A stretch of 42,847 bases of DNA from a virus: the IMG/VR virus record IMGVR_UViG_3300042560_000801, positions 1-42,847 of that record; one strand, 5' to 3'. Of this stretch, positions 28,039 to 42,847 are shown piece after piece (position 1 is the first letter of the stretch; each line of letters starts with the position of its first letter). The notes beneath the pieces are model-generated. The model saw only the letters and a list, made by a program, of their open reading frames with translations, did no database searches and was not told the origin of the DNA. The position numbers were made by a program, and so were the translations under genes.

Positions 28039-28096
28039 GGTTTTGTCTTTCGTTTGCCCCTTCGGCCAATCCGGTCGGGCAAAGCGACCTTGCGTG

Positions 28097-28117
28097 TGTT
28101 GACCAATTATGTCAACA
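28097..28117. promoter_or_regulatory. Perfect inverted repeat between divergent operons, probable operator
   Basis: TGTTGAC (28097-28103) and GTCAACA (28111-28117) are exact reverse complements separated by seven bases. The 112-base gap between the Sak4 and HTH starts holds no gene. A TTGAC -35-like core is contained in the palindrome on both strands. A clear -10 was not found for either, so promoter positions remain open. The HTH protein encoded 34 bases away is the obvious candidate ligand. Confidence 0.65.
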
Positions 28118-28150
28118 GCAATGCGCAAAAAAATTATCAGGAGCGATTAC

Positions 28151-28321
28151 ATGCAGACCATTGAAGCCATCCGAAAACAGCTACAGGATCGAAACCTGCG
28201 GGCTGTGAGCCGGTTGACGGGGGTTGGATATGCCACAATCCTGCGTCTGATGCGCGGCGCGACGCCGTCTTACGCCGTGGTCAAGAAGCTGAGCGACTAT
28301 TTGGGGGACAAGCGTGACTGA
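28151..28321 (+). CDS. Small helix-turn-helix protein (Cro-like)
   Basis: A 56-residue protein from ATG at 28151 with AGGAG eight bases upstream. LRAVSRLTGVGYATILRLMRG is a helix-turn-helix pattern, and AVVKKLSDYLGDK forms the last helix. It lies upstream of the primase-helicase and divergent from the recombination operon, with the palindrome between. By position it may regulate both. A longer start at 28109 would begin inside the palindrome and has no ribosome site. Confidence 0.75.
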   Translation: MQTIEAIRKQLQDRNLRAVSRLTGVGYATILRLMRGATPSYAVVKKLSDYLGDKRD

Positions 28322-30332
28322 CTTGACGCATATCCTAGGCGGCCCCTGGAGCCCGCCGAAGCCCGCGCCGATCGAAGATCAGATCCGCACCGCCATGCAA
28401 AACGCAGGCGTGACCCCGCCTAGTTCGATTGTGATCGACGGCACGCTGCACCGCTACCAGACCGGCAGCAAGGGCCAAGCCGGGCATGATAAAGCAGGCT
28501 GGTATGTGTTTTTTCCCGATGGCGTGTGCGCGGGGATGTTTGGGGACTGGCGCACGGGCGTGACGCAGACCTTCAGGGCTGAGGTGGGGCGAGAGCTGAC
28601 GGCCCAGGAGCAGATGGCCATTACCCGCAGGCAGGCTGAGGCCCGCGCTGCTCGCGACGCTAGGGCCGCCCAGGCCGCCGAGACGGTCGAAGCCATATGG
28701 TCCCAAGCCGGGGCGGCGAGCGATGACCATCCTTACCTTGCGCGCAAGCGGGTCAAAGCCCACGGCCTTCGCATCACCGGCGATGGGCGGTTGATGGCCC
28801 CCCTCTACGATCACACGGGCGCGCTGTCGTCGCTGCAATATATAGACGCCGAAGGCGGCAAGCTTTATCACGCAGGGGCGGCGACAGGCGGGCGGTATTG
28901 GGTTGTCGGAAGCTGTGAAGGCGATGTCGTTTACATCGCCGAAGGCTTCGCCACAGCGGCCACCATTCACGAAGTGACCGGCAAGCCCTGCGTGGTGGCG
29001 TATAGCGCCAGCAATCTGGTCCCCGTCACCGGCTCCATACGCGAGGCCCACCCGGACGCTGAGTTGGTCATCGTGGCGGACAATGACGCCAGCGGCGTTG
29101 GCCAGAAATACGCCGATCAAGCAGCAGCTAAACACCGCGCTAAGGTTGTGGTCATTCCCATCCAAGGTGACGCCAATGACTACGTTGCTGGCGGGCATGA
29201 CCTGCAGGCCCTACTTAACCCGCCGATCGAGCAATGGCTCATTCCCGCCGATGAGTTTGCAGCCCAGCCCGCGCCGCTGCGATGGCTGGTCAAAGGCTGG
29301 ATCCAGGCCGAAGCCCTGCACATGATCCATGGCCCTTCAGGCGGGGGCAAGACGTTTGCCGTGCTTGATCTCATGCTCCACATGGCGGCTGGCCGCACTG
29401 AGTGGAACGGCTGCAAGGTCAAGCCGGGCGCAATCGTCTATCTTGCCGGCGAAGGACACCATGGCTTGCGAGGGCGCGTTGCCGCTTGGAAACAACACCA
29501 CCAAGCCGACAGCCTGACAATGTGGTTAAGCCGGGAAGGGTGCGATCTCAACACCAAAGAGGGCTTGCAGCATGTGATTGATCACATTCGAGGCCTGAAC
29601 CACCAGCCCGACGTGATCGTGGTTGACACCCTGCATCGCTTTCTCAAGGGCGACGAGAACAGCGCCCAGGATGCCAAGACCATGCTCGACGCCTGCGCCC
29701 ATCTCATGCGCGGCTTTGGGTGCGCGGTCATTCTCGTTCACCACACAGGAGTGAGTGAGGAAGCCCAGCATCGCGCCAGAGGATCGAGCGCTTGGAGGGG
29801 TGCCCTAGACATCGAGATCAGCGTAGTCCCCAGCGACAACGGGTGCCTGCGTTTGGTCCAGAGAAAGAGCAAAGACGCCGAGTTGAAGCCGCCCATGAAT
29901 GGCAAGCTTGAGACCGTTACCCTCGCCGGATGGGTTGATGAGGATGGCGAAGCGGTCACCAGCGCGGTTCTCGTTGAAGCCCCGCCAGAGCCGAAAGAAG
30001 CCGCTCTTGCCGGGCACGGAGCCATCCATCACCACCAGAAACTGTTTTCCAGGGCTTGGGTCGAAGGCGGCAAGATTTTGCTTGGTGAAGATCCATTCGT
30101 GGCAAGGGATGCTGTGGCCAGTTTGCTTCAAAATGATGGCTACAAGCCGGGGTCGGTCAAAAATATGCTCGCGCCAAGCAGCAAGGGGAAGCCCGTGCAT
30201 GACCTGCTGAACGCTGAATGGATTAAAAAGGCGTCAGACGAGGGGGAAAATGGCGATGGCTGGATCATTATCGAGCCAGGGTGGAGGGCCTCACTTTTGG
30301 TCATTAGTGACTCACTAGTGACTCACCAGTGA
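28314..30332 (+). CDS. Primase-helicase (Toprim plus RepA-type AAA domain)
   Basis: A 672-residue protein with GTG start and GGGGGA upstream, overlapping the HTH gene by eight bases. Residues 1-150 resemble the N-terminal region of phage primases without visible zinc cysteines. The Toprim domain has AEGFATA (Glu210) and ADNDASG (Asp256, Asp258). The helicase domain has Walker A GPSGGGKT (340-347), VIVVDTLHRF (Asp438) and a Walker B-associated HH motif (ILVHHTG). This RepA-like hexameric helicase arrangement unwinds and primes DNA. The last codons lie in the repeat region that may be the origin. Confidence 0.88.
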   Translation: MTDLTHILGGPWSPPKPAPIEDQIRTAMQNAGVTPPSSIVIDGTLHRYQTGSKGQAGHDKAGWYVFFPDGVCAGMFGDWRTGVTQTFRAEVGRELTAQEQMAITRRQAEARAARDARAAQAAETVEAIWSQAGAASDDHPYLARKRVKAHGLRITGDGRLMAPLYDHTGALSSLQYIDAEGGKLYHAGAATGGRYWVVGSCEGDVVYIAEGFATAATIHEVTGKPCVVAYSASNLVPVTGSIREAHPDAELVIVADNDASGVGQKYADQAAAKHRAKVVVIPIQGDANDYVAGGHDLQALLNPPIEQWLIPADEFAAQPAPLRWLVKGWIQAEALHMIHGPSGGGKTFAVLDLMLHMAAGRTEWNGCKVKPGAIVYLAGEGHHGLRGRVAAWKQHHQADSLTMWLSREGCDLNTKEGLQHVIDHIRGLNHQPDVIVVDTLHRFLKGDENSAQDAKTMLDACAHLMRGFGCAVILVHHTGVSEEAQHRARGSSAWRGALDIEISVVPSDNGCLRLVQRKSKDAELKPPMNGKLETVTLAGWVDEDGEAVTSAVLVEAPPEPKEAALAGHGAIHHHQKLFSRAWVEGGKILLGEDPFVARDAVASLLQNDGYKPGSVKNMLAPSSKGKPVHDLLNAEWIKKASDEGENGDGWIIIEPGWRASLLVISDSLVTHQ

Positions 30333-30512
30333 CTTTTGGGGAAAAAGTCATCGGTCATTTTCAGGTCATTTGTGAGTCATCGATGAGTGGTCAGGAGTGA
30401 GCGCAATTTCACTCGGTCAGTCATTCACTTTCTCCCCTCCCCCCGTAGGGGGGGGGAAATGAGTGACCGAGTGAAGTGCTCACTGAAGGTGACCCTAATG
30501 ACCCCGGTGACC
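30306..30512. other. Candidate replication origin: phased GTGAC/GTCAT repeats
   Basis: Three AGTGACT copies begin at 30306, 30317 and 30328, exactly 11 bases apart. GTCAT copies begin at 30347, 30354, 30365 and 30376, the last three again 11 apart. TGACC copies begin at 30490, 30499 and 30508, nine apart. Most share a GTGAC/GTCA core. The gap 30333-30632 contains no gene and lies right after the primase-helicase. Repeats phased on the helix and a large hairpin suggest an origin; this is inference. Confidence 0.55.
30408..30475. repeat. Large imperfect hairpin with C/G-rich core
   Basis: Arms of 18 bases (30408-30425 and 30458-30475) pair with one mismatch. The loop region contains a second possible stem, six C (30439-30444) facing nine G (30448-30456) around GTA. 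Flanking GAGTGA/TCACTC and AGTGA/TCACT pairs add alternative stems. No T tract follows on the + strand, so a simple terminator is unlikely. Confidence 0.75.
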
Positions 30513-30632
30513 CTGGTAAGAGGGGGGTAGATAGGTTGGTTAAGGGGTGAGGCTTAAAAGGGGTTGGTTAGCTAAGTTGGCTAAGTGGAGGGGCGTGGTT
30601 AACACAATGGTTAACGGCAAGGGTGGAGCGAC

Positions 30633-31100
30633 ATGAACGAAGATTACTGGAAAGTAAGGTGTGAGGAGCTGGAGGAGGAACTGCGCCAGGTCCGCGATGT
30701 GCTGCGGAGGGAAATTCATCCCGTCGTGTCGGCGATGGGAATGATTGCCCCGCAGACCCCCAGCGGGGCGGTTACGATGGTGGCGGCGCTGTACAAGGCC
30801 CACCCTCACGCCCTGTCGCGAGAGCGCCTGATGCTGGCGCGGCGGGCCTGCAAGGAGGACGTGGACGACAAGGTGATCGATGTTCAAATCTGCAAGGCTC
30901 GCCAAGGGCTGCGGAAAGCCGGAGCCGAAGGGCCGATCATTGTTAACGTCTATGCCGCCGGCTATCGGATGCACGCGAGCGCTTACGCTTGGCTGTCTGA
31001 GCGGCTGATGGAGGTGCAATTAGCTGAGGCGCGGTTGACGGACACACGGTTGACAGACGCTACGAACCTTGCTTCTGTCCCCACAAAACACAGGGGCTGA
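30633..31100 (+). CDS. Stand-alone winged-helix regulator (OmpR/PhoB effector type)
   Basis: A 155-residue protein with GGAG five bases before the ATG. Residues 1-40 form a coiled coil (ELEEELRQVRDVLRREI). Residues 45-115 match the effector domain of response regulators: ALSRERLMLARRA, then DDKVIDVQICKARQGLRKAG and a wing ending VYAAGYRMHA. No phosphate-receiving domain is present. It follows the origin-like region and precedes the packaging genes, a suitable place for a late-gene activator or host-programme mimic. The domain call is good; the target is unknown. Confidence 0.72.
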   Translation: MNEDYWKVRCEELEEELRQVRDVLRREIHPVVSAMGMIAPQTPSGAVTMVAALYKAHPHALSRERLMLARRACKEDVDDKVIDVQICKARQGLRKAGAEGPIIVNVYAAGYRMHASAYAWLSERLMEVQLAEARLTDTRLTDATNLASVPTKHRG

Positions 31101-31863: not shown

Positions 31864-32036
31864 AGATTGGCGTTGGACTTCCACCCGGTTGGTCCGTTAT
31901 CGGGACGATCTTTACCGGCGCTCTTCTCTGGATTGGCGCGCAGCTGCCGGCATGGCTTTCTTGGGGCTTTACCGTCTTGACGGCGCTTGTCCCTGATGTC
32001 AGTGTGGCCCCTGTTGTTGAGCCCCCTGTGCAGTGA
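31860..32036 (+). CDS. 58-residue membrane protein
   Basis: Starts in an ATGA overlap and ends in a TGATG overlap with the next gene. The sequence has one or two short hydrophobic segments (VIGTIFTGALLWIGAQLPAW, then LSWGFTVLTALVP). It lies just before the terminase genes with another membrane gene, a possible alternative site for holin function. Unknown family. Confidence 0.6.
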   Translation: MKIGVGLPPGWSVIGTIFTGALLWIGAQLPAWLSWGFTVLTALVPDVSVAPVVEPPVQ

Positions 32037-32185
32037 TGGCAAAACGTCCCGGCCTTTACGCTAACATCGCAGCCAAGCGAGCCCGCATTAAAGCGGGCTC
32101 CGGCGAGAAGATGCGGAAGCCAGGCGCAAAAGGCGCTCCCACTGCGAAGGCGTTTCGCGAGAGTGCGAAGACGGCGAAAAGATAA
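32036..32185 (+). CDS. 49-residue basic protein, common in podoviruses
   Basis: The product begins MAKRPGLYANIAAKRARIKA and continues with GSGEKMRKPGAKGAPTAKAF, the recurring sequence of a small basic phage protein of unknown role found in many tailed phages. The TGATG overlap with the upstream gene supports the start. It may be a virion or DNA-binding component. Confidence 0.8.
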   Translation: MAKRPGLYANIAAKRARIKAGSGEKMRKPGAKGAPTAKAFRESAKTAKR

Positions 32186-32207
32186 AACGTAGCTCGCGCG
32201 CGGTAAT

Positions 32208-32555
32208 ATGAAGAAACCAGGTCGCCCTCCTCACGTCAAAACTGAAGAGAACGCGCAGCGCGTTGAGCAGCTGTGCGCCTATGGCATGGATCACGTCACT
32301 ATCGCCAAGATTTTTGGCATTAGCCACGACACGCTGACCAAGTATTATCGCGATGAGCTTGACGTTGGCAAAGCCAAGGTTGTTGAACAGGTTGCAAACT
32401 CGCTGAAGCAGAACGCCCTTAATGGCGACACGCAGGCGCAGAAGTTTTTTCTGTCAAGCCGTGCGGGCTGGAGCGAAAGCTCACAGCAAAAGGTTGATGC
32501 GAGCGTAACCCTTGCCGTCGTCACAGGCGTCCCGCATGCCTCAGAAGCAGATTAG
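32208..32555 (+). CDS. Terminase small subunit
   Basis: A 115-residue protein with KKPGRPPHVKTEENAQRVEQ, then an HTH (DHVTIAKIFGISHDTLTKYY) and RDELDVGKAKVVEQVANSL, the typical pattern of small terminases that recognise phage DNA. The C-terminal GWSESSQ region fits the family. It overlaps the large subunit by 20 bases. The start has only a weak ribosome site. Confidence 0.85.
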   Translation: MKKPGRPPHVKTEENAQRVEQLCAYGMDHVTIAKIFGISHDTLTKYYRDELDVGKAKVVEQVANSLKQNALNGDTQAQKFFLSSRAGWSESSQQKVDASVTLAVVTGVPHASEAD

Positions 32556-42270: not shown

Positions 42271-42759
42271 ATGATTATGGATGAACGACTTGAGTTCGCT
42301 GACAACGTGTCCGTGGCGGCTTCGGCTGGCACGGCTTTGATCGGCGATGTGATCGACCTTGGCGCCACGACCCAGGACGTTGGCAATGGCGAACCGCTGT
42401 TTCTGGTCATCAAGACTGGCGCGACGGAAATCATCACGGGCGGTTCCGCTGGTACGGTCAAGTTCCAGCTGGCTTCTGACGCTCAAGCGGCGATTGCCAC
42501 GGATGGATCGGCTACGGTTCACTTTGACACGGGCACGATCGTCACTGACGACGCAGCAGCGAACAGCGCATTGCTAAACGCGGGTGCGACGATTGCCATG
42601 GTTGCTCTTCCTCTGGGAACCTACGAGCGTTACCTTGGCATCCTCTGCACCACGGCGACGACCACGACCACGGCAGGCACGATCGACGCCTTCTTGACGA
42701 AAGATCCGTCGAAGTGGATCGCCACGGCTAACGCGCCTGGCGCAAGCATCAATCTCTAA
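42271..42759 (+). CDS. Capsid cement protein, Bbp16-like
   Basis: A 162-residue protein with AGGAG eight bases before the ATG. MIMDERLEFADNVSVAASAG and TALIGDVIDLGATTQDVGNG match Bbp16-family cement proteins that stabilise BPP-1-like capsids. The C-terminal end crosses the joint of the linear representation, so a piece also appears at 1-39. Confidence 0.85.
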   Translation: MIMDERLEFADNVSVAASAGTALIGDVIDLGATTQDVGNGEPLFLVIKTGATEIITGGSAGTVKFQLASDAQAAIATDGSATVHFDTGTIVTDDAAANSALLNAGATIAMVALPLGTYERYLGILCTTATTTTTAGTIDAFLTKDPSKWIATANAPGASINL

Positions 42760-42847
42760 CTGACGGAGGGTACAGATGAAGATCGTGAAGGCGACAGCTT
42801 TAGGCTTTTACAAAGGGTCAAGGGTGCGTCCCGGCACGGTCTTCTCT
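42721..42847. repeat. Terminal overlap, right copy
   Basis: Exact copy of bases 1-127; see the left copy for interpretation. Confidence 0.95.
42776..42847 (+). CDS. Partial CDS: start of EP-repeat small protein
   Basis: The first 24 codons of the gene complete at 56-256, cut by the window end. Not a second copy. Confidence 0.9.
   Translation, partial: MKIVKATALGFYKGSRVRPGTVFS

Follow-up and report, generated by a model that had tools for sequence, protein, structure and literature searches.

A candidate iteron-type replication origin downstream of a phage primase-helicase gene, with repeat words that co-vary with the winged helix of the encoded protein

The window analysed here is the whole of a 42,847-base virus record (IMG/VR record IMGVR_UViG_3300042560_000801), a tailed-phage genome whose bases 1-127 recur identically at 42721-42847. 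This recurrence of the first 127 bases at the end points to a circular assembly, of which such a k-mer-sized overlap is typical, and the record is probably a complete genome. At the center of the locus lies a gene for a 672-aa primase-helicase, the proposed initiator (28314..30332, plus strand; stop codon at 30330-30332). Its upstream partner gene on the same strand encodes a Cro-type HTH regulator (28109..28321; HTH_3), and just upstream of this gene or at its start there is a palindrome, GTTGAC-N7-GTCAAC (28090-28130), which is probably the operator of the Cro-type gene in a divergent promoter region. The next gene downstream (30633..31100, plus strand) carries an OmpR-type DNA-binding domain (Trans_reg_C), followed by a TerS-like gene at 32208 and the TerL region, so that the terminase genes are less than 2 kb away from the repeats described below. 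The gap after the primase-helicase gene had been singled out as the only large non-coding one, and it is indeed the largest non-coding stretch seen; the interval 31864-32207 is apparently empty only at a 60-aa ORF limit and contains two short ORFs. One of these is apparently membrane-spanning and the other starts MAKRPGLYANI. The gap holds a repeat array with a long hairpin in its middle and, between this putative origin and the Trans_reg_C-type gene, a second motif set unrelated to the array (30536..30615), made of TTGGTTA, GGTTAGCTAA, GGCTAAG and two copies of GTTAAC. This second set is perhaps the operator or promoter of the Trans_reg_C-type gene. Close relatives, L007 among them, carry variants of it.

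At the protein level, the placement of the repeats behind a RepA-type helicase-primase gene was borne out by Pfam matches to AAA_25 (E 1.5e-39) and Toprim_3 (E 3.3e-12) and by a match of the helicase profile to the RepA helicase of RSF1010 (1G8Y, E 2.4e-7, residues 322-501). The Toprim (primase) domain spans residues 206-291 (28929..29186, plus strand), with E210, D256 and D258 invariant, and the RepA-type helicase domain spans residues 311-481 (29244..29756, plus strand), with the Walker A motif GPSGGGKT. The C-terminal 110 residues are confidently predicted to form a winged helix, the AlphaFold2 model having a mean pLDDT of 85 and core blocks of 93-96. This domain (residues 570-672; 30021..30329, plus strand) is proposed to be the reader of the repeats, on the basis of the model and of the co-variation with the repeated word described below. 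Its recognition helix H3 corresponds to residues 612-619 (PGSVKNML; codons 30147..30170, plus strand; helix H53-60 of the domain model). Comparison of the domain by Foldseek and VIA-align retrieved many generic winged helices with Z about 6 and no particular family, and neither PDB nor Pfam gave a credible match when searched with the winged-helix sequence. No invariant cysteine was found in the primase-helicase alignment, and no plasmids carrying the whole protein were found at 80% coverage.

The array covers 215 bp (30299-30513), and the primase-helicase gene terminates within it. It is built on the word RRTGAS, which, counting both strands, occurs 19 times within 30296-30530 (235 bp) versus 1.0 expected. 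This makes it the densest RRTGAS site of the genome; the runner-up place has 8 copies, and there is no second dense site elsewhere in the window. Block A (30299..30334) presents the word in alternating orientation with an 11-bp period and overlaps the last codons of the gene. It contains the AGTGACT copies that had been reported at exact 11-bp steps, found at 30306, 30317 and 30328, and these run into the stop codon, in agreement with the claim that the first iterons overlap the end of the gene. Block B (30346..30401) is formed by GATGAC and AATGAC, mostly on the minus strand, and then AGTGAG. Block C (30488..30513, plus strand) reads GGTGACC/AATGACC/GGTGACC with a 9-bp period and includes the TGACC copies anticipated at 9-bp steps (30490, 30499 and 30508). 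The three supposed families have periods of 11, 11 and 9 bp. Two claims of the original prediction survive only in part. GTCAT does occur at 30300, 30347, 30354, 30365, 30376 and 30420, but the 11-bp step holds for 30354-30365-30376 and not for the remaining copies. Similarly, the repeat families do have one word in common, but what had looked like three families is a single degenerate RRTGAS in two orientations. The commonest 4-mer (15 copies) and 5-mer (10 copies) were matched in 0 of 1000 dinucleotide shuffles, while the commonest 6-mer (5 copies) was equalled in 1 of 1000 and is unexceptional versus the rest of the genome. The window fails the strict 6-mer test that works for its relatives, its signal sitting in the 4- and 5-mers. 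No A+T-rich melting region is obvious in the window, although no quantitative test was applied. Its helix type (GSVKNxLAP) is common only to its close clade and to the more distant L095, which carries GGTGAC, and for this type the association of helix and word has no wider basis. The case for the window itself rests on its place in the family, as inferred from sequence comparison.

Homologues were collected from IMG/VR, GTDB genomes and annotated phages and define a phage family of more than 599 contig stretches. From these, 100 clusters with distinct downstream DNA were subjected to a shuffle test on 270 bp that surround and follow the stop codon, and 87 of them passed, displaying a short word repeated in both orientations after the primase-helicase gene. 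These 87 clusters fall into about 30 word groups. In a held-out set, a word with at least 5 copies was present in 115 of 121 new clusters, and across the about 200 clusters the array is nearly always located directly 3' of the primase-helicase gene. The word is GGTACA in Idiomarinaceae phage 1N2-2, GGTTCA in Alteromonas phages XX1924 and PB15, and GGGGACA in Salicola phage CGphi29; uncultured phages carry GGGTCA, GGGTGA, GGTAAC, GGAAC, CGGACC, CGTACC, AGGGGG and others. Conservation of the repeats in related genomes had been put forward as a check, and the outcome was divided: close relatives keep them, whereas at greater distance the whole word is replaced. Far from refuting an origin, this replacement is the key observation of the study. 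In L031, L032, L144 and L158 no array was found near the gene in the available stretches, and the recognition-helix region differs. Dense ACTTGA repeats in L052 (2200-3200, upstream of the primase-helicase gene) were considered as an array and discarded, since they resemble one or more pentapeptide-repeat genes.

The identity of the protein that reads the words was approached through their co-variation with the neighboring genes. In partial Mantel tests, the word followed the winged helix when the helicase was accounted for (r = 0.39, p = 0.001), and not the helicase when the winged helix was accounted for (-0.08). A different possibility is that a transcription factor, either the Cro-type HTH or the OmpR-type protein, uses the words as its operators and thereby controls the next operon. 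Such an explanation would suit words that are short and near-palindromic, that lie in an intergenic position and that have two DNA-binding proteins encoded next door. Nevertheless, no relationship between the word and the upstream Cro-type HTH is left after correction for the winged helix (r = 0.03, p = 0.16, n = 44), and this protein is not supported as an alternative reader. The OmpR-type gene, for its part, is missing from the listed neighbors of the array in the annotated relatives L002-L005, no promoter-like site was called in the array region, and the arrays of some relatives have DnaA boxes alongside. Control of the next operon is consequently considered an unlikely function of the array.

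A joint regression over protein regions assigned a beta of 0.50 to H3 and its loop, 0.09-0.14 to the segments nearer the array and 0.01 to the helicase. This gradient is difficult to reconcile with a co-variation due only to physical linkage, in which adjacent winged-helix codons and array would be inherited jointly without any functional contact. The winged-helix codons do adjoin the array and cassette exchanges span both, but H3 is the best predictor even though the wing and the C-terminus are closer to the array, which argues against mere linkage. The same was observed in a held-out prediction test, fixed in advance, on the 121 new clusters: the H3 neighbor did better than the helicase neighbor in 38 and worse in 5 (Wilcoxon p 1e-6). 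Prediction fails at a nearest-helix distance above about 0.45. In L204, the nearest-neighbor prediction was wrong and a single-position rule gave the right word. Among such residue-word rules, SAKQY goes with GGTAAC (23/23), SAK(V/I)Y with GGAAC (11/14), SAKTY with GGGAC (34/35), KPGYPDQ with CGGACC (7/7) and KPGS(A/T)DQ with CGTACC (10/10). Clusters within one rule are related to each other and their counts are not independent events; near-isogenic and swapped pairs constitute cleaner evidence.

Several such pairs were found. L103 and L150 are 96% identical up to position -293 relative to the stop codon and again from +225, with a wholly different winged helix and word in between, and L048 and L049 share 95% identity until -305, beyond which they differ. 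Judging from these alignments, winged helix and array have moved together as one cassette between phages that are 96% identical otherwise. The near-isogenic pair L127 and L112 shows 89.6% identity across 2.4 kb, array included; most array words change from GGTAAC to GGAAC, the recognition helix differs by Q/V and the domain otherwise shows few differences, so that word and H3 change jointly within closely similar DNA. In L148 and L157, whose helices predict GGTAAC, there is no array at the stop codon; a GGTAAC array with a hairpin is located about 300 bp farther along, behind an inserted short ORF, and the prediction is thereby met. L055 carries a GGAAC array and hairpin 5' of the gene. The displaced arrays of these three relatives keep the expected word class, a situation that, with the L127/L112 pair, renders linkage without contact improbable.

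The 18-bp-arm hairpin with a C6/G9 core that had been described in the gap was recovered in the middle of the array (30408..30475), with 18-nt arms at 30408-30425 and 30458-30475 that are 94% complementary and contain words, and with the C6 and G9 tracts at 30439-30444 and 30448-30456. Folded as single-stranded DNA it reaches -28.3 kcal/mol (z = -8.6, 0/200 shuffles). The core is C6-GTA-G9 in the window and in L018 and CACACCTTAGGGTG in other close relatives, having been exchanged as a block within this clade, and the pairing of the stem is kept through compensatory changes (CGG/CCG to CAG/CTG, CATT/AATG to CACT/AGTG). Across the family, 71% of loci versus 0.9% of shuffles have in the array a palindrome whose arms form 5 or more pairs and whose apex is C(TTTA/TATA/TTA and similar)G. 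This regular-apex hairpin was also found in 66 of 111 held-out clusters, with arms of varying sequence, and is missing in about 30-40% of clusters. The hairpin is, on this evidence, a conserved and separate part of the locus. Any strong stem-loop directly 3' of a gene raises the question of whether it is a transcription terminator or an RNA element, with the repeats as mere decoration. However, no terminator-like site was called in the array region, a T-run follows the hairpin in just 2 of 92 loci, all matches in an Rfam search were far below gathering scores, and the words flank the hairpin on both sides and occur outside it. A role of the hairpin at the RNA level is, for these reasons, very improbable. 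In L182, which has a different C-terminal domain, a 46-bp perfect palindrome lies 3' of the gene, with TGTCCGG twice per arm and TATATATA at its center.

A further association with replication is provided by boxes for the host initiator DnaA. The density of the consensus TTATCCACA is 0.54 per kb in the regions downstream of the gene versus 0.027 per kb elsewhere in the loci, a 20-fold difference, and such boxes are present in 15 of 100 relative clusters. They adopt a recurrent layout, two before the array and one after, that is common to arrays of different words and that has been displaced together with the array in L148 and L157. The window has no DnaA box (all candidate sites have at least 2 mismatches). 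This absence lowers the likelihood that it belongs to the iteron origins, without excluding it, as the feature is common and not universal. Packaging (pac/cos) recognition or cutting by the nearby terminase (TerS-like gene and TerL region within 2 kb) is very unlikely to be the purpose of the array, given that the words track the winged helix of the primase-helicase, that DnaA boxes accompany arrays, and that XX1924 and PB15 keep the array with no terminase among the listed genes of the following 4 kb. Cumulative GC skew, which had been suggested as a check of the origin, was uninformative: it follows gene direction and, after linear detrending, has two minima of about equal depth, one near 5 kb and one near 28 kb.

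Altogether, the proposal of an iteron-type origin is supported by the architecture in about 200 clusters, by the co-variation with the initiator domain and by the DnaA boxes in some relatives. A replication protein with its own array-matching winged helix, together with DnaA boxes, indicates initiation. With a probability of roughly 0.84, the stretch 30299-30513 would be the replication origin of this phage and, with its counterparts, of a large phage family, read by the winged helix of the primase-helicase; there are no binding or replication data. Repeats, hairpin, position, co-variation, swaps and the DnaA boxes of relatives have been established computationally; binding and origin activity have not. 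In the mechanism that can be inferred from the co-variation, the winged helix would bind the short words (RRTGAS in this phage) in either orientation, and the RepA-type helicase would be assembled on the array. DNA would then be melted beside the array, presumably with the help of host DnaA where relatives have boxes for it. The hairpin, either as a cruciform or as a single strand, might serve as the priming or loading site for the Toprim primase; this is the weakest step, inferred by analogy with the ssi hairpins of RSF1010. The pair formed by recognition helix and word would have diverged into the about 30 word groups, partly by cassette exchange, and such divergence would stop related phages from firing each other's origins. 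Whether the locus can be regarded, more ambitiously, as a hypervariable, cassette-exchanged origin specificity locus of a widespread group of tailed phages, with initiator, helicase and primase in one protein, a residue-to-base code obeyed by its winged helix and coinfecting relatives unable to share origins, is a question on which the present evidence is evenly poised. The finding supplies a family of phages with a predicted origin and initiator; no description of their origins was found in the open-access literature searched. It also offers a natural mutant series of about 200 clusters (about 30 word groups among the first 87) on how a winged helix reads DNA, in which single residues go with single bases, and it opens replicon incompatibility between related tailed phages to direct testing.

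No helicase-primase of the RepA type that carries a winged helix of its own and is followed by a word-switching hairpin array was found in the open-access literature searched, although parts of this arrangement are present in several known systems. The layout of the locus is like that of alpha and crr in phage P4. P4 alpha also combines a Toprim primase, a helicase and a C-terminal winged helix in one protein, and this winged helix binds short repeats (PMC4234260). In the P4 record, crr lies directly 3' of alpha and contains, per 120-bp unit, five type I repeats (TGTTCACC = GGTGAACA) in both orientations. In contrast, P4 alpha has a helicase that is not RepA-type and, at its N-terminus, a cysteine-rich (zinc-ribbon-like) motif. 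A second array (ori) lies 4.5 kb away in P4 where the window has one, and no conserved-apex hairpin is listed in crr. Sequence comparison with the P4 origin-binding domain (1KA8) gave no match; 1KA8 is absent among the 50 structural matches listed, which excludes nothing, and both domains belong to the winged-helix fold class. RSF1010 (IncQ) shares the RepA-like helicase core, by a sequence match from which a hexamer can be inferred at most, as well as repeats and hairpins in its origin (PMC4234260). There, the functions are divided among the iteron initiator RepC, the RepA helicase and the RepB' primase with its ssiA/ssiB hairpins, whereas the phage studied here has one 672-aa polypeptide with a C-terminal winged-helix reader.

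The hairpin has parallels in pRN1-type archaeal plasmids and Bordetella phage BIP-1, in which a primase-helicase with a C-terminal winged helix is directly followed by a large stem-loop whose stem is kept while its sequence varies; in pRN1, the stem-loop directly 3' of the gene is essential (PMC4234260). These pRN1-type proteins join an archaeal-type primase to an SF3 helicase, in place of the Toprim and AAA_25 domains found here, and neither iterons nor specific binding have been found in pRN1. In PICI/SaPI elements the origin is located immediately 3' of the initiator gene and has two iteron sets, and the iterons differ between elements (PMC6092414), but the initiator proteins are others and an AT-rich melting region separates the iteron sets, in contrast to the in-array hairpin described here. 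The concept of a switching word has its precedent in begomoviruses, whose iterons lie beside a hairpin with an invariant apex (PMC2974675). These are ssDNA viruses with a rolling-circle nickase, a protein unrelated to the primase-helicase and without helicase-primase loading. Co-variation of iterons with a single initiator residue and their joint exchange are already documented in them: the variable base of the iteron goes with one residue in the iteron-related domain, and origin and specificity determinant are exchanged jointly by recombination (PMC2974675).
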